From Bryobacteraceae bacterium (GTDB taxonomy: Bacteria > Acidobacteriota > Terriglobia > Bryobacterales > Bryobacteraceae), in contig JANWXD010000017.1 of the NCBI GenBank assembly GCA_025055455.1, positions 1 to 37,855 of the forward strand: DNA of 37,855 nucleotides, given 5' to 3'. Every line of letters begins with the position of its first letter. Position 1 is the first letter of the stretch. Positions 4,012-24,482 of the stretch are shown here, one piece after another. The notes beneath the pieces are model-generated. The model was not told the DNA's origin, did not search any database, and saw only the letters and a list, made by a program, of their open reading frames with translations. A program made the translations under genes and the position numbers.

Positions 4012-5508
4012 TTATCGCGCCGGGCCCACTTGGGCCAGGAAGCCGGCGGCGGCGCCGGGCGGGGTGGGTTTGGTGGAGCCGTCGGTGACCGGCAGGTTGC
4101 GCGAGGTCGTATAGCCGGTCACGTAGAAGCTCGCGCCGGGGGCGGAGACGAGGCCCGTTGCGGTCTCCGTACCGGCGCCGGCCAGAAGCGCCGACCAGGT
4201 CAAGCCGTGCGGCTCCGGCGCGGCGGGATCGAGCACCGCCATGAAGGCGTCCGCGCCGGGAAAGCGGACCGTGTTGGCGGGGGCGGCGTCGCGGAGGGGG
4301 AAGTCCGAAGAAGTCGTGTAGCCTGCCAGCGCCACGCGGCCATCGTCCAACCGAGCGAGCGCGTACGCTACGTCGGCCGACGCGCCGCCCAAGTACGTCG
4401 AGTAAGTGAAGAACTCGGAGGCGGGCCGCGACGGATCGAGCCGCGCCACAAAAACGTCCGCGTTGCCGCCGAGCGCTCGCTGGAGCGAAGGTCCCGCCAG
4501 CGGGAAATCGTCGGACAGGGTGTATCCGGTCAGCCAGAATCCGCCTCGCGTGTCGCGGGCGAGCGCGCGGGGCACGTCCAGACCCGAGCCGCCGAAGTAC
4601 GTTCCGTAGGTCAGCGTTTCCAGGCCGGAGCGGTTGAAGTCCACTTCGACCAAAAAGCCGTCGCCTCCGCCCGAAGGCTGGGCCTGCGCGCCGACGCCGG
4701 CGATCGGGAAGTCGGTGGAAAGGGTGTAGCCGGCCACCCAGGCCCGCAGCGAAGCCCCGTCGAAGGCCACGCCCGTCGCAGCGTCGGTCGAGTTGCCACC
4801 GAGGAAGGACAGAAACAGCAGCGACGGGGAGCGGTCGGGGTCGAGGCGGGCGATGAAGGCATCCCAGCCGCCGCGGTTGCCAGGCTGGAGGGTGCCGCTC
4901 GGCAATCCGGAAAGGTCGCCGGAACCGGTGTAGCCGACCACGACCAAGCCAGCGACGGGATCGAGCGCCAGAGCGGTGGCCGCATCCAGGCCGGGACCGC
5001 CGATATAGGTGGAGTACACCAGCGATTCGGCGCCAGAGAGCCGCGGATTGATCTTCGCCACGAAGGCGTCCCAGCCGCCGCCGGAGCTGGTCTGATGGGC
5101 GTTGCCCGCCGTGGGGAAGTTGGTCGAGGCCGTCATGCCCGCGACATAGACGTTTCCGGAGGCATCCACCGCGAGTGCGGCGGGAAGATCGTCCGCCGCT
5201 CCGCCAAGGGCGGTCCAGTAGACGAGGGTGAGCCGGCCGCTCGGCTCGAGGACGTATTTGGCCAGCGAGACGTCTCGGGCGCCCTTGACCGTGAATTGGA
5301 AAGGATCGGGCTGCACGGGCAATTCGACGAACGAGGTCGTCACGCTGGCGACCCAGATGCCGCCGTCGGGGTCACGGGCGATGGCGGCGGGCTGATCGAA
5401 GCGGTCCCCGCCGAAGTATCCGGCAAAAAGGATCGCAGGGTTGGCTGCAAGGGCGCCAGAAGAGCATAAGAGAGCGGCGCAAATCAGAGTGACGAAGCGG
5501 CGACGCAT
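4012..5508 (-). CDS. Exported SBBP-repeat beta-propeller protein
   Basis: 498 residues from the ATG at 5508. This start is chosen because it gives a clean signal peptide (MRRRFVTLICAALLCSSGALA); an in-frame upstream start at 5535 would lie in repeat DNA. The mature part holds seven units of about 55-65 residues with the pattern YSTYLGG-x3-D-x3-ALA-x10-V(A/T)GYT-x-S-x-DFP, the SBBP repeat of seven-bladed propellers. Likely secreted or surface-exposed, function unknown; such repeats are common in Acidobacteria and other soil bacteria. It lies 57 nt upstream of and on the same strand as the CARF-HEPN gene, but nothing ties it to CRISPR. No cell-wall or sorting domain is visible at the C-terminus. 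Confidence 0.85.
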   Translation of the reverse strand: MRRRFVTLICAALLCSSGALAANPAILFAGYFGGDRFDQPAAIARDPDGGIWVASVTTSFVELPVQPDPFQFTVKGARDVSLAKYVLEPSGRLTLVYWTALGGAADDLPAALAVDASGNVYVAGMTASTNFPTAGNAHQTSSGGGWDAFVAKINPRLSGAESLVYSTYIGGPGLDAATALALDPVAGLVVVGYTGSGDLSGLPSGTLQPGNRGGWDAFIARLDPDRSPSLLFLSFLGGNSTDAATGVAFDGASLRAWVAGYTLSTDFPIAGVGAQAQPSGGGDGFLVEVDFNRSGLETLTYGTYFGGSGLDVPRALARDTRGGFWLTGYTLSDDFPLAGPSLQRALGGNADVFVARLDPSRPASEFFTYSTYLGGASADVAYALARLDDGRVALAGYTTSSDFPLRDAAPANTVRFPGADAFMAVLDPAAPEPHGLTWSALLAGAGTETATGLVSAPGASFYVTGYTTSRNLPVTDGSTKPTPPGAAAGFLAQVGPAR

Positions 5509-5512
5509 GGTT

Positions 5513-5554
5513 GTGAGCCGTGAGCGATCAGCCATCAGCCCCCAGCCGTCAGCG
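5513..5554 (+). repeat. Six contiguous 7-bp repeats (left array)
   Basis: Six heptamers follow one another without a gap: GTGAGCC, GTGAGCG, ATCAGCC, ATCAGCC, CCCAGCC, GTCAGCG. The consensus is about (G/A)T(C/G)AGC(C/G). A matching array in opposite orientation stands at 5810-5837, so the two bracket the four-helix-bundle relic. The array lies immediately upstream of the start of the SBBP gene. Confidence 0.85.
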
Positions 5555-5795
5555 GCGACCGATCAGAGGTAGCCGGAGGGCGACGGGGAGAAGCCCCACG
5601 TTGGCGGTCCGCGTTGAGCTTTCGAAGCAATCCCGAAAGCATGCGCTTCACTTCCGTTATCTGCCGGGCCGCGGCGTCGTAATCCTGATCGCGCACGAGC
5701 CGGAGCCCGCCCGCCAACCAGGGGGATCTTCGCATTCGCTCGCCGAGCCTAGCTCGGTGCACCGACGGCGGCCGCCGGAGCCACAGCGAATCCAA
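5535..5795 (-). pseudogene. Relic of a four-helix-bundle (S23/IVP-like) protein
   Basis: A minus-strand reading frame of 86 codons. Residues 21-60 of it (5616-5735) resemble the last helix pair of four-helix-bundle proteins of the S23 family: WLAGGLRLVRDQDYDAA followed by ITEVKRMLSGLLRKL. Intact members are about 120 residues and start with the conserved N-terminal helices, which are not found upstream here; the first 20 codons look unrelated. The frame closes inside the left heptamer array. I read it as the C-terminal remnant of a mobile or repeat-associated S23-like gene. A free-standing small gene is possible but less likely. No ribosome binding site is seen. Confidence 0.5.
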
Positions 5796-5809
5796 CCTTC
5801 TCGGTTACT

Positions 5810-5837
5810 CGCTGACCGCTGATCGCTGACCGCTTAT
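5810..5837 (-). repeat. 7-bp repeats (right array, inverted relative to the left one)
   Basis: Read on the minus strand, GTCAGCG, ATCAGCG and GTCAGCG follow each other, with a fourth degenerate unit at 5831-5837 that runs into the stop codon of the prepilin peptidase gene. Together with 5513-5554 it forms the inverted ends of a unit of about 325 bp. This fills the gene-poor stretch 5509-5833. Confidence 0.8.
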
Positions 5838-6643
5838 CTCCCTTGATACCACAGGAACGCCGGGCTCTGAAGGAAGGCGATCAGGAGGGCGGCCAAAGCC
5901 AGGAAAGTGCCGAAGGGAAGCTCGTAAGTGGCGTAGTCTTTCCGGGCGGCGCGGATGTAGATGAGACCGACAACGGCGCCGAAGACGGAGCCGAAGATCA
6001 GGGTCTGGAGCGCGCCGCGGAGGCCGAGAAAAGCGCCGATCATGGCGAGCATCTTGACGTCGCCGAATCCGAGCCCTTCACGGCCGCGGACGCGGCGGTA
6101 GACGGCGCCAGTGAACCACAGCAGCCCGGCGCCGAAACCGGCGCCGAGGAGCGCTTCGAGCACGGAGAGGCTGCGCGGGCCCCAGTCGGAAAGGAACAGC
6201 TGGGCGAGGGTGAAGTCGAACGGCTCCAGGGCCGCGAGGGCCACTCCGGCGATGGCCCCTCCGAGCGTCATCTGGTCCGGCAGGATGCGCTGCTCGAGGT
6301 CGCAGAACGCCAGACCGATCAGCAGAGCGCTGAACAAGCAAAGCTTGAAGGCAGCCAGGCTGAAGCCGAGCGGCAGAACGATGACGAAGAACGCGGCGCC
6401 GGTCAGGAGTTCTACCGCTGGATAGCGCACGGGGATGCGCGCGCGGCAGTGGCGGCAGCGGCCGCCGAGGGCGAGGTAGCTGATCACGGGAACGTTGTCG
6501 TACCAGGCCACAGGCGTGTTGCAGGCCGGGCAGAAAGAGCGCGGGCGGACGACGGACAGATCCCGCGGCATGCGGTAGATGCAGACATTGAGAAAGCTGC
6601 CGACGAGCAGGCCGGCCCCCAGCGCTAGGACGGCTTCGAGCAT
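5834..6643 (-). CDS. pilD: Prepilin peptidase (type IV leader peptidase)
   Basis: 269 residues, normal for the bifunctional PilD/GspO family, an inner-membrane aspartic protease that cuts the leader of type IV prepilins and pseudopilins and usually N-methylates the new end. The cytoplasmic N-terminal loop has the two zinc-type cysteine pairs (Cys38/Cys41 and Cys63/Cys66) and the ARIPVRYPAVELLTG motif. The catalytic aspartates are visible as Asp115 in CDLEQRILPD and Asp195 in GFGDVK. About seven hydrophobic segments follow. The start overlaps the end of the upstream glycosyltransferase gene by 19 nt, so it is likely the last gene of a minus-strand operon. No pilin gene lies near, so it probably serves pili or type II secretion encoded elsewhere. 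Confidence 0.95.
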   Translation of the reverse strand: MLEAVLALGAGLLVGSFLNVCIYRMPRDLSVVRPRSFCPACNTPVAWYDNVPVISYLALGGRCRHCRARIPVRYPAVELLTGAAFFVIVLPLGFSLAAFKLCLFSALLIGLAFCDLEQRILPDQMTLGGAIAGVALAALEPFDFTLAQLFLSDWGPRSLSVLEALLGAGFGAGLLWFTGAVYRRVRGREGLGFGDVKMLAMIGAFLGLRGALQTLIFGSVFGAVVGLIYIRAARKDYATYELPFGTFLALAALLIAFLQSPAFLWYQGR

Positions 6644-8307: not shown

Positions 8308-9273
8308 CTAGTCCGGCGTTTGGATCGGCGCCACCATGAAACACAGGGCGAAGATGGCCAACGCGACCAGGCCGAGCTTCTTGCGCGCGGCGCCGAGCTC
8401 GCTCGTGTCGTAGATGACGGGGTGGCGCAGCCCAAAGAAGAACAGAATCGCAGCCCACAACAGCCACGGCCAGTAGAAGAATCCCAACGGAATCAGGGCG
8501 GCCAGGAAAAGGCGCGACAATAAGCGATGCCGTTCGCCGACGAATGCGTAGAGGAGGTGCCCGCCGTCGAGCTGGCCGATGGGGAGCAAGTTCAGGGCCG
8601 TGGCGAAGACCCCGACCCAAGCGGCGCGCGCCATCGGATGCAAGGAGATGTCCTCGGACGGCACGCCGGGAAAGATGAGAGATTCGAACAGGCGCAGGAT
8701 GGGCGGCGTGTCAAAGACGACGTCGCCGCGCAGGGCAATGCCCGGGGCGACGCGGGAATACGCCAACCCAATCGTCAGCGCGGGCAGGAGGAAGACAAAG
8801 CCCGCAATGGGACCCGCAACGGCGACGTCGAACAACACGCGGCGCGAGTAGATCGGCGAGCGGATGCGGATGAACGCGCCGAAGGTTCCAATCAGCGTGG
8901 GCGAGGGAAGGAAGTACGGGGGACTGGCGTCGAGCCGGTAGTACAGACAGACGAAATAGTGCCCGAGCTCGTGAGCCAGCAGGATCGTCAGCAGCGTGAG
9001 CGAGAAGGACAGGCCATCCAGCCAAAAGCTGAGTTCGCGCCAGTGGGCCAGCGATCCGAGGCTCCGGTCCAGGTCGATGGCAGGAAGGTCGTGGCGAAAG
9101 TTGTACGCCAAGCTTCCGCCCACGGCCGTGGTCGTTACCAACGTGGCGGCAAACAGCACGGCGTGGAGCCACCACCGGGGACGCTGGGGCGCCGCTGCCG
9201 TCGCGCGCCATGCTGCCCTCCCGTTCCAGGATTCGGGGAAGGCGGAGGTGCTAGGGAAGCCGGAAGGGGTCAC
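8308..9273 (-). CDS. Membrane-embedded M50 (site-2 protease-like) metalloprotease
   Basis: 321 residues. Zinc site HELGH at residues 101-105 inside a hydrophobic helix, and the third ligand region NLLPIGQLDGGH at 228-239 (Asp236) inside another. About six to seven transmembrane segments. Site-2 proteases cleave substrates within the membrane, often anti-sigma factors or signal-peptide remnants. The second motif is closer to the plant EGY/cyanobacterial subgroup than to RseP, and no PDZ domain is present. The GTG start at 9273 immediately abuts the HU stop codon at 9274. The first 30 residues are polar and the true start could be slightly inside. Substrate unknown. Confidence 0.9.
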   Translation of the reverse strand: MTPSGFPSTSAFPESWNGRAAWRATAAAPQRPRWWLHAVLFAATLVTTTAVGGSLAYNFRHDLPAIDLDRSLGSLAHWRELSFWLDGLSFSLTLLTILLAHELGHYFVCLYYRLDASPPYFLPSPTLIGTFGAFIRIRSPIYSRRVLFDVAVAGPIAGFVFLLPALTIGLAYSRVAPGIALRGDVVFDTPPILRLFESLIFPGVPSEDISLHPMARAAWVGVFATALNLLPIGQLDGGHLLYAFVGERHRLLSRLFLAALIPLGFFYWPWLLWAAILFFFGLRHPVIYDTSELGAARKKLGLVALAIFALCFMVAPIQTPD

Positions 9274-9540
9274 CTACAGCGACTGGAGTTCCTTGCCCGG
9301 CTTGAAGCGTACGGCTTTACCGGGCGGGATGGCGACTTCCGCGCCGGTTCGGGGGTTGCGGCCGATGCCCGTCTTACGGTTGCGAACCGTGAAGATGCCA
9401 AAGCCGCGCAGTTCGATGCGCTCGCCGCGGGCGAGCGCCTCCTTCATGCTCTCGAAGACGCGATCCACCGCCATTTCCGCCTTGACTTTGGTAATGCCGG
9501 TACGGTTCACGACCTCGTTGACAAGATCGAGCTTGATCAA
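9274..9540 (-). CDS. HU/IHF-family DNA-binding protein
   Basis: 88 residues from a TTG start at 9540, chosen because it is preceded by a strong GGAGGAGGA ribosome binding site 3-4 nt upstream and gives the standard HU N-terminus (MIKLDLVNEVVNRTG). The DNA-clamping arm is visible as RGFGIFTVRNRKTGIGRNP followed by RTGAEVAIPPGKAVRF. HU dimers bend and compact DNA in the nucleoid and assist replication and recombination. The longer frame to 9597 would begin inside the structured leader and is rejected. It heads a minus-strand run (M50 protease, GT2, GT4, prepilin peptidase) with almost no gaps, driven by the promoter at 9628-9656. Confidence 0.95.
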   Translation of the reverse strand: MIKLDLVNEVVNRTGITKVKAEMAVDRVFESMKEALARGERIELRGFGIFTVRNRKTGIGRNPRTGAEVAIPPGKAVRFKPGKELQSL

Positions 9541-9627
9541 TTTCTCCTCCTCCGGTGCGGGCCGAAAGGGCCGACTGCCCAAGCGTGCGGGCTCCACGAG
9601 CGGCAGTCGCCTCTGCGTGCAAACCTC

Positions 9628-9656
9628 ATGATAAGATTGAGCTTAATTTTTGTCAA
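9628..9656 (-). promoter_or_regulatory. Near-consensus sigma-70 promoter for HU
   Basis: On the minus strand TTGACA (9651-9656) and TATCAT (9628-9633) are separated by exactly 17 nt; the spacer is AT-rich, unlike the surrounding GC-rich DNA. Transcription should start near 9621, leaving a leader of about 80 nt before the HU start. The leader contains a long-range stem, GACTGCC pairing with GGCAGTC around a 20-nt interior, and a short GGCC-loop-GGCC hairpin just before the ribosome binding site. Confidence 0.85.
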
Positions 9657-9678
9657 GCCACTACTGGGAAGTGTTGGG

Positions 9679-10161
9679 ATGCCGTTTTCCGCCGTAAACC
9701 GGGATAGCTTTCGCCGGGCGTGTGCCAAGTTTCCGACGGGCGTGGCCATCGCTACGGTGAACGGTGCCGACGGGGCGCCGCACGGCCTGACGGTGAATTC
9801 CTTCACCTCGGTTTCGCTTTCGCCGCCTCTGGTGCTGATCTGCGTGGACCACGCCGCGGCGGTGCTACGCCACTTCCGCGCGGCGCAATGTTTCGGCATC
9901 AACGTGTTGCGCGAATCCCAGCGGGAGCTTTCGGTGCACTTTGCGCGCAAGGGGCATGACCGCTTCGACGGCATGGAATGGACGCCGGGCGCGACGGGCG
10001 CGCCGCTGCTGGCCGGTGTGTTGGCCTCGCTGGAGTGCGTGGTGGAGAAGACCGTAGAAGCCGGCGATCACACGATTTTCATCGGCAAAGTGGTCGCCGC
10101 AGCGGCGCACCCGGGCAGGCCGCTGGTGTACTACGAAAGCGGCTACCACACGCTCGGGTGA
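9679..10161 (+). CDS. Flavin reductase-like (FMN-binding split-barrel) protein
   Basis: 160 residues, starting MPFSAVNRDSFRRACAKFPTG. The family signatures are FPTGVAIATVNGADGAPHGLTVNSFTS, then SLSPPLVLICVD, and the C-terminal GDHTIFIGKVVAAAAHPGRPLVYY. Members reduce FMN or FAD with NAD(P)H, often to supply a two-component monooxygenase, or act alone as flavin oxidoreductases. No monooxygenase gene is adjacent, so the partner is unknown. It is divergent from HU, the intergenic region is about 140 nt, and no ribosome binding site of note precedes the ATG at 9679. A long plus-strand extension of the frame upstream runs antisense through HU and the M50 gene and is not coding. Confidence 0.9.
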   Translation: MPFSAVNRDSFRRACAKFPTGVAIATVNGADGAPHGLTVNSFTSVSLSPPLVLICVDHAAAVLRHFRAAQCFGINVLRESQRELSVHFARKGHDRFDGMEWTPGATGAPLLAGVLASLECVVEKTVEAGDHTIFIGKVVAAAAHPGRPLVYYESGYHTLG

Positions 10162-10162
10162 G

Positions 10163-10197
10163 CAGCGGTCAGCAGTCAGCGGTCAGCAATCGGCGAT
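10163..10197 (+). repeat. Five contiguous 7-bp repeats
   Basis: CAGCGGT, CAGCAGT, CAGCGGT, CAGCAAT, CGGCGAT follow without gaps right after the flavin reductase stop codon. They match the family seen at 5513-5554 and 5810-5837 and have the same period. Confidence 0.8.
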
Positions 10198-10436
10198 GGG
10201 CAGACTGCGGCCACCCGTGAGGATCGGTCAACGAACCGCAAGACGACCCGCCGATCCCGTCCCGTTGCGCCAACCGCTGTCAGCCGCCTTGCGGGGCGGG
10301 CGAGAAGTGAGCCACGCGGCCGAGCCGCTCCCGTCTGCGCCGGCCGCGGCTCGGCCCAGCTTCCAGTTGCCGCTGCAAGTTCGCCAGTCGCATCTGGCCT
10401 GAGAATCGCGACGCGCGCGGCGCTACCCTTTCGGGT
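10198..10436. other. Intergenic stretch with a possible second four-helix-bundle relic
   Basis: No convincing gene. On the minus strand at roughly 10289-10396 a short frame reads QMRLANLQRQLEAGPSRG, followed by a low-complexity Arg-rich tail. The first part could be the final helix of an S23-like four-helix-bundle protein, and the heptamer array lies on the same side of it as in the 5513-5837 unit. The likeness is short and could be chance. Confidence 0.3.
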
Positions 10437-24406: not shown

Positions 24407-24482
24407 TGGTGGCCAGGGACGGAATCGAACCGCCGACGCCAGCCTTTTCAGGGCTGCGCTCTACCAACTGAGCTACCTGGCC
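24407..24482 (-). tRNA. tRNA-Phe (GAA)
   Basis: A 76-nt cloverleaf on the minus strand: acceptor GGCCAGG/CCTGGCC, D arm GCTCAGTTGGTAGAGC, anticodon stem CAGCC/GGCTG with loop CTGAAAA (anticodon GAA), T arm GGCGG-TTCGATT-CCGTC with one G-U pair, discriminator A, and an encoded CCA. All stems pair fully. Confidence 0.98.

Follow-up and report, generated by a model that had tools for sequence, protein, structure and literature searches.

Inverted heptamer arrays around an S23 relic in a Bryobacteraceae genome: a candidate REPIN-like miniature element

A 37,855-nt stretch of a Bryobacteraceae genome (the window, part of contig C54 in a genome of 3.95 Mb and 145 contigs) contains a short intercistronic segment in which two arrays of 7-bp repeats, in opposite orientation, enclose what looks like the end of an S23-type four-helix-bundle gene. 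Is this a chance meeting of simple repeats and a gene fragment, or is it what is left of a mobile unit, and do intact relatives of such a unit exist elsewhere? The first-pass annotation, made from the letters of the window, proposed a mobile unit with heptamer arrays as its ends.

The element in the window and its genome

Read in the orientation of the relic, the order of features is peptidase A24 gene, TAA/array, relic, inverted array, 4 nt, and SBBP start codon (Table 1); the element fills the gap from the stop codon of the peptidase gene to the next start codon (5506–5508), and the first TAA of the array on the peptidase side doubles as that stop codon. The array 3′ of the relic consists of the heptamers GTGAGCC GTGAGCG ATCAGCC ATCAGCC CCCAGCC GTCAGCG. 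These are in phase, as the first-pass annotation had stated, although the units of both arrays are degenerate rather than exact repeats. With 26 matches in 35 at period 7, this array is the window maximum, tied with an array near 10160; among 200 first-order Markov shuffles the maximum period-7 signal was 24, reached twice.

Table 1. Features of the window discussed in the text (positions are those of the window)
Feature	Positions	Strand	Remarks
Heptamer array, six units, reading inward	5513–5554	+	3′ of the relic, in relic orientation
Inverted heptamer array, four units (TAAGCGG TCAGCGA TCAGCGG TCAGCGA)	~5808–5836	−	5′ of the relic
S23/23S-IVP four-helix C-terminal helices, relic, 38 residues	5604–5717	−	Pairwise alignment; subfamily of L044, L045 and L031
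Whole decayed element	5509–5836	−	Fills the gap between two co-oriented genes
Type IV leader peptidase gene (A24_N_bact, Peptidase_A24), upstream	5834–6643	−	Stop codon coincides with the array's first triplet
SBBP/NHL beta-propeller gene, downstream	4012–5508	−	N-terminus signal-peptide-like (by eye)
Second array of the same heptamer type, gene-less	10157–10198	+	Starts at the stop codon of a flavin-reductase-domain gene (8527–10161, +)

The relic encodes the residues LAGGLRLVRDQDYDAAARQITEVKRMLSGLLRKLNADR. Aligned with the C-terminus of the S23 protein of locus L044, which is from another genus of the window's family, it gives a Smith-Waterman score of 99 (300 shuffles: mean 22, maximum 39) and is the top scorer among 792 six-frame segments of the window; a TCAGCGT-type array follows the L044 gene too. 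In pairwise comparison the relic scores conspicuously only with members of its own subfamily (L044, L045, L031, L049), and it has no match with the S23 model PF05635 over the genome, with NCBIfam, with Pfam, or with a mixed S23 HMM. Its place in the S23/23S-IVP family (PF05635, TIGR02436) therefore follows from pairwise homology below the profile cut-off, which intact relatives pass. The AGC-type unit of the window agrees with the AGC-type units of this protein subfamily. The two opposed arrays and the C-terminal S23 relic between them, all three present in the first-pass description, are thus real, and the segment is best read as a decayed copy of a miniature element that is probably mobile.

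A PF05635 search of the whole genome detected no intact S23 gene, and no Y1_Tnp match at E ≤ 1e-10 is present there. Heptamers of the window's type are dispersed: AGCSRTC × 3 with up to 3 mismatches has 33 genome matches vs 2 for the reversed control. A looser pattern, RNSAGCS × 3, discriminated poorly (303 vs 196 matches) and was discarded. At up to 2 mismatches there are six further sites of this heptamer type, among them a gene-less inverted pair (C53:69511–69585). The window site alone has an S23 relic; no comparable one was found near the other arrays tested, where the next-best score (58, locus L023) falls in an unrelated ORF, presumably RecR-like as judged by eye, ~430 bp off the array. 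Arrays would remain when S23 is lost, as in the window.

Association of arrays with S23 genes

PF05635 was found in 17 of 41 genomes (40 relatives, all outside the window's genus, and the window's own; E ≤ 0.01) and in 134 of 297 genomes of the phylum (E ≤ 1e-8). A first sample of 30 + 30 + 80 regions gave 140 loci, 136 with an S23 match after L046, L047, L055 and L059 had been dropped for lack of an HMM match; 10 of these lacked 620-bp flanks, leaving 126. The second sample, the best 80 of 561 relatives across GTDB, was reduced likewise by 10 to 70 and covers proteobacteria, cyanobacteria, planctomycetes, Chloroflexi, a Treponema, Bacteroidota, and a contig labelled Methanosarcinales. ORF calls were mechanical throughout.

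Among these S23 loci, which are the best-scoring of the matches listed rather than a random draw, include some orthologues at one site and share one locus between samples (L036 = L178), an array of period 7, 8 or 9 lies within 200 bp of the S23 gene at 153 of 196, compared with 7 of 196 in control zones. The samples agree, with arrays on at least one side at 100/126 and 53/70 loci (controls 3 and 4) and on both sides at 49/126 and 31/70, and the association persists after thinning to protein identity below 60% (77 of 101 loci vs 3 in controls). At the threshold used, 43 of the 196 loci have no array. Period 7 alone accounts for 62 upstream and 57 downstream arrays among the 126 loci (1 and 1 in control zones 370–600 bp away) and for 40 and 38 among the 70 (controls 2 and 1). 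The heptamer of the first-pass annotation is thus the dominant unit but not the only one: in the first sample, period 8 occurs upstream at 9 and downstream at 16 loci, and period 9 at 5 and 2. At one site, one genome has 8-mers on both sides where others have 7-mers. Other periods from 3 to 20 occur at 0–6 loci, except 14 and 16, which are twice 7 and twice 8. The association between heptamer arrays and S23-like genes that had been suggested from the window alone therefore extends well beyond it. Phage carriage was also considered; one S23 protein had no match in 50,697 phage records.

We used Y1_Tnp genes in S23-bearing genomes as a control mobile gene, and arrays flank them upstream at 1 of 20 loci and downstream at none of 20. 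These counts bear on a reading in which a Y1/RAYT (REP-associated) transposase mobilizes the unit in trans and the arrays are an unusual REPIN. The architecture is shared, since REPINs are inverted doublets that behave as a miniature unit (PMC3116915, available part), and S23 and Y1_Tnp co-occur with an odds ratio of 3.7 among the 297 genomes (both 85, S23 only 49, Y1 only 52, neither 111), although this co-occurrence may reflect mobile-DNA load. However, 49 of the 134 S23 genomes have no Y1_Tnp match at E ≤ 1e-10, including two (G300 and G333) with at least 15 S23 hits each. As an obligate enzyme Y1/RAYT is rejected on these grounds, and its action in trans on the unit seems highly doubtful.

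Within a locus, the unit of one array recurs inverted in the other: the two agree at 6.19 of 7 positions (3.50 when permuted), and the units are identical on both sides at 39 of 75 loci, where permutation predicts 1.4 (34 of 65 after thinning at 80% protein identity). The inverted ends proposed for the window are accordingly a general feature, while the unit itself differs between loci. The strand reading inward is G-rich (G 0.40, C 0.14 in 7-mers). AG recurs at least three times at one phase in 249 of 305 arrays, a motif picked post hoc, for which a stricter count gives AG 208/305 and GG and GT 157 each; it is missing in phase from 56 of 305, among them the GTGAATG arrays at the nuoC-nuoD sites described below. 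The last base of 7-base units, before the next AG, is a pyrimidine in 151 of 208, and a typical unit can be written (Y)AG-N4, 7 bp and sometimes 8 or 9. Intact elements measure ~430–570 bp, with the S23 gene between the two inverted arrays.

An alternative that can be judged at this point takes the arrays for ordinary heptamer microsatellites that sit at stop codons or terminators and have S23 beside them by chance. Heptamer repeats are known in bacteria (PMC4692102, PMC4679880, PMC2700814, available parts) and the present arrays do vary in copy number. The 153 against 7 loci, the strict inverted polarity, the matched units, and the presence or absence of the unit as a whole (below) nevertheless make it extremely improbable.

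Array span has a mode of five units, in 63 of 208 arrays of 7-mers and 11 of 33 of 8-mers; the 9-mers (8 arrays) have no such mode, and the correlation in length between the two arrays of a locus is weak (rho 0.23). The PDB relatives 2gsc and 2rld contain five chains each, and a Xanthomonas S23-family protein is described as a homopentamer in the available part of PMC4990558, after Lin (2006), whose title speaks of five four-helix bundles. One S23 protomer per repeat is an attractive idea that these numbers suggest.

Several further observations concern the unit. S23 residues 14–22, 55–61 and 75–79 (L036 numbering) covary with heptamer positions 2–4, in an analysis with no phylogenetic correction, and are a candidate array-reading face, which we take only as a lead. 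A GGTTTT(C/A) heptamer array (L363:499–557) lies near a Y1 transposase in genome G161, whose S23 locus (L097) has GGTTTT(G/A) arrays. On Nostoc plasmids one S23 element occupies one plasmid site in two strains with differing repeat numbers (L176/L177). Three Rhizobiales loci (L274, L295, L246) have 8-mer GCAGTAGG-type arrays around S23 or a remnant; relative to their 7-mer GCAGTAG relatives, one extra G shifts the period on both sides.

Transfer, loss and placement of the unit

The heptamer follows the protein. Pairs above 80% protein identity share 4.6–4.9 of 5 variable heptamer positions (18 pairs), compared with 2.25 at 60–70% and 1.25 at 35–40% identity, and the Mantel correlation of unit with protein is 0.17 (null maximum 0.06). 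The flanks could be tested for 101 of the 107 pairs whose proteins are 55–97% identical and whose heptamers share at least 4 of 5 variable positions; 72 of the 101 lack a homologous flank within ~1.2 kb and 29 have one. A flank-unrelated pair joins a locus of the window genome's family (L034) to one on a cyanobacterial Trichormus plasmid (L172). Gene and arrays therefore move together, and the arrays do not belong to the site as such.

Presence and absence of the unit could be followed in Mesorhizobium, rather than in the window's own family or at its own site. There an acyl-CoA dehydrogenase gene and a 3-hydroxyisobutyrate-dehydrogenase-type gene (Pfam) flank the element, and these flanks are present in 41 of 41 genomes, of which 13 have an intact unit (426–571 nt between flanks), 1 a decayed, 4 a gene-less and 23 an empty site. 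In the decayed copy (G354) the gene is internally deleted and 8-mer arrays (GCAGTAGG) stand on both sides, whereas intact copies have 7-mers; both ends differ together from the intact copies, in either direction of change. In four genomes (G343, G344, G351, G362) this point holds nothing but inverted arrays that are gene-less or degenerate, as judged by eye. The S23 genes of this site have a median dN/dS of 0.069 (66 pairs, 12 of 13 genes; mean dN 0.060, dS 0.822), and on this comparison of sequences S23 is under purifying selection.

Empty sites leave 24–30 nt, apart from two with palindromes, and share a spacer that starts with a stop codon; in occupied sites the stop codon is part of the array or next to it. 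The shared spacer suggests that many of the empty sites probably never held the unit. Alternatively, an old insertion with repeated decay and loss could give the Mesorhizobium pattern, and loss is more likely part of the story since gene-less remnants sit at one point in four genomes. The junctions read at this site showed no insertion event, intermediate or clear target duplication. The idea of a mobile unit is largely supported, by presence and absence at an orthologous site and by gene-less forms, while gain at a new site was not seen; the reverse outcome, with arrays spread uniformly away from S23 genes and invariant between strains, is not what we find. At the same intercistronic point, two empty Mesorhizobium sites (L275, L281) carry an unrelated 84–85-nt palindrome, and a Bosea locus (L292) has a 153-nt spacer with another palindrome-like sequence (by eye).

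Arrays also persist in genomes without S23. TAGGCAG × 3 occurs in 29 of 41 Mesorhizobium genomes, the reversed control having no match, and 5 of 9 Mesorhizobium genomes with no S23 match have arrays, as does the window's genome. When one array per genome was examined, 4 of 29 flanked S23 and 25 were gene-less. In a scored partner test (a strict hairpin pattern missed degenerate partners), 21 of the 25 gene-less arrays have a partner in inverted orientation downstream (p ≤ 0.01), and none has a direct partner or an inverted partner upstream; by eye, several of the 25 represent one site shared by different genomes, so they are not independent. The G-rich arm is always 5′ in these gene-less hairpins, and two such hairpins occur in Bosea also.

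Placement relative to neighbouring genes is strongly biased. At 95 of 148 loci (2–6 when shifted), a co-oriented ORF of at least 120 codons has its stop codon no more than 15 nt from the start of the upstream array, and the downstream array has its outer edge at the stop codon of an opposing ORF at 46 of 145 (1–7 when shifted). The orientation of the longest neighbouring ORF, a noisy measure, gives 131 co-oriented upstream vs 55. This placement reflects either targeting or the survival of harmless insertions. Fifteen alphaproteobacterial loci with GTGAATG-, GCGAATR- or GGCAGTC-type units share a junction that we take to be nuoC-nuoD from its peptide motifs (both motifs in 14 of 15). Both arrays were detected at 14 loci, and there the sides match or nearly so. 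Our reading is that the two arrays evolve in concert, for instance through template switching within a hairpin; alternatively, the site may have received independent insertions.

The position of elements inside operons such as nuoC-nuoD is compatible with a role in RNA, in which the arrays pair in the transcript, RNase III excises the element from operon mRNA so that insertion is harmless, and S23 may autoregulate by binding the stem. Inverted arrays can always pair, and in the Coxiella intervening sequence (IVS), which has an S23 ORF and 2–3 tandem GACAGAT heptamers plus a degenerate one, RNase III cuts at the first repeat (PMC4990558, available part). However, where the two arrays of a locus differ, G-U-compatible changes in the sense transcript are not favoured (28.1 vs 34.3 incompatible, 115 loci; p = 0.064 in the opposite direction), 46 of the 145 downstream arrays also end at stop codons of opposing ORFs, and neither the window nor any of 18 S23 loci examined has an rRNA match in Rfam. 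The wobble test thus gave no support to pairing in the sense transcript as a driving force, a result that leans towards a DNA-level role; RNA processing is an unlikely explanation that keeps some weight. The sole tRNA detected in the window (Phe) lies at 24407–24482.

Proposed mechanism and comparison with known systems

We consider it fairly probable that the elements are REPIN-like miniature units whose arrays are recognized by a putative S23 pentamer, and that the window holds a dying copy. This reading builds on inverted matched arrays, a unit that follows the protein lineage, whole, gene-less and empty states, unrelated flanks, hairpins, stop-codon placement, and purifying selection, all established by sequence comparison; that S23 recognizes the arrays is probable. 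A homopentameric S23 ring would bind the arrays at the DNA level, one protomer per repeat, the array probably being bound as a hairpin in single-stranded DNA. We know of no nuclease motif in S23, and a host or trans-acting nuclease or polymerase would copy the unit to gene 3′ ends, which tolerate it. The two inverted arrays could be kept identical by slippage and by template switching from one to the other, such that both change together, and loss of S23 would leave the arrays behind, as in the window.

The copying enzyme might instead be a reverse transcriptase. S23 would then be a homologue of the accessory protein Avd, a reverse transcriptase acting in trans would copy the unit, and the arrays would grow by reiterative copying. 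The S23 protein of L049 matches the Avd model NF033474 at E = 3.1e-5, below the model's cut-off; homology of Avd and PF05635 is noted in the available part of PMC10053308; and the constancy of the tandem unit within an element is reminiscent of repeats synthesized from a template. Against this, the whole-unit steps in which array length changes would also result from slippage. The Avd homology speaks for this route, which we regard as quite unlikely.

More broadly, S23 genes with inverted heptamer arrays may constitute an unrecognized class of miniature mobile elements in many phyla, including at least one archaeal-labelled contig. In this class a nuclease-free pentamer would read five (Y)AG-N4 repeats in a lineage-specific code, the element would rewrite both of its ends together, and the 23S IVSs would be a few copies that landed in rRNA. 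We put this forward tentatively, giving it somewhat less than an even chance. S23p-family proteins are described as having no known function, and the role of IVSs as little known, in the available part of PMC4990558, and the presence of period-7 to -9 arrays beside about four-fifths of the sampled S23 genes provides a concrete candidate ligand for S23. The association also places the Coxiella heptamers in a wider setting, hints at mobile elements as the origin of some 'simple' heptamer repeats in bacteria, and poses an evolutionary puzzle, in that the ends differ between lineages yet stay identical to each other.

Heptamer arrays that flank an S23 gene elsewhere than in rRNA are described in none of the titles and abstract openings listed by searches of open-licence PMC full texts (subscription literature and bioRxiv lie beyond this scope). 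Tandem 7-bp arrays are known as TAACTGA in Beggiatoaceae and GGGAATC in Xanthomonas/Nostoc, both largely intergenic, and in Geobacter elements (PMC4679880, PMC4692102, PMC2700814); in their available parts, S23 and four-helix terms are absent from the first two sources and 'four helix' from the third. The Avd protein of diversity-generating retroelements is a homologous four-helix protein, but sits with a reverse transcriptase and template/variable repeats.

The 23S rRNA IVS of Coxiella burnetii is closer. According to the available part of PMC4990558, it comprises 428 nt with an S23 ORF, inverted ends, tandem heptamers upstream and strain-variable copy number, and is regarded as selfish; its GACAGAT heptamers have AG in phase, and its terminal stem of 28 bp is four times seven. 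It lies in helix 45 of 23S rRNA, whereas the present elements lie at the stop codons of protein genes, with matched arrays on both sides, a unit particular to each locus, and gene-less derivatives. The S23 ORF between inverted ends is common to the IVS and the present elements (intact in relatives, a relic in the window), but we do not file the window element as an IVS because the defining insertion in 23S rRNA is absent. The Coxiella IVS could be one special placement of the same element. REPIN/RAYT systems, as described in the available part of PMC3116915, resemble the present elements in their small inverted doublets, hairpins in extragenic space and dispersed miniature units. The gene here is S23 rather than a Y1/HUH transposase, however, and the ends are tandem 7-bp arrays rather than single palindromes. 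A hairpin-forming inverted doublet and dispersed gene-less copies are present, whereas a cognate Y1 gene is absent from the 49 S23 genomes mentioned above and from that of the window. The best reading of the element is therefore REPIN-like in what it works like, and built on S23 in what it is.
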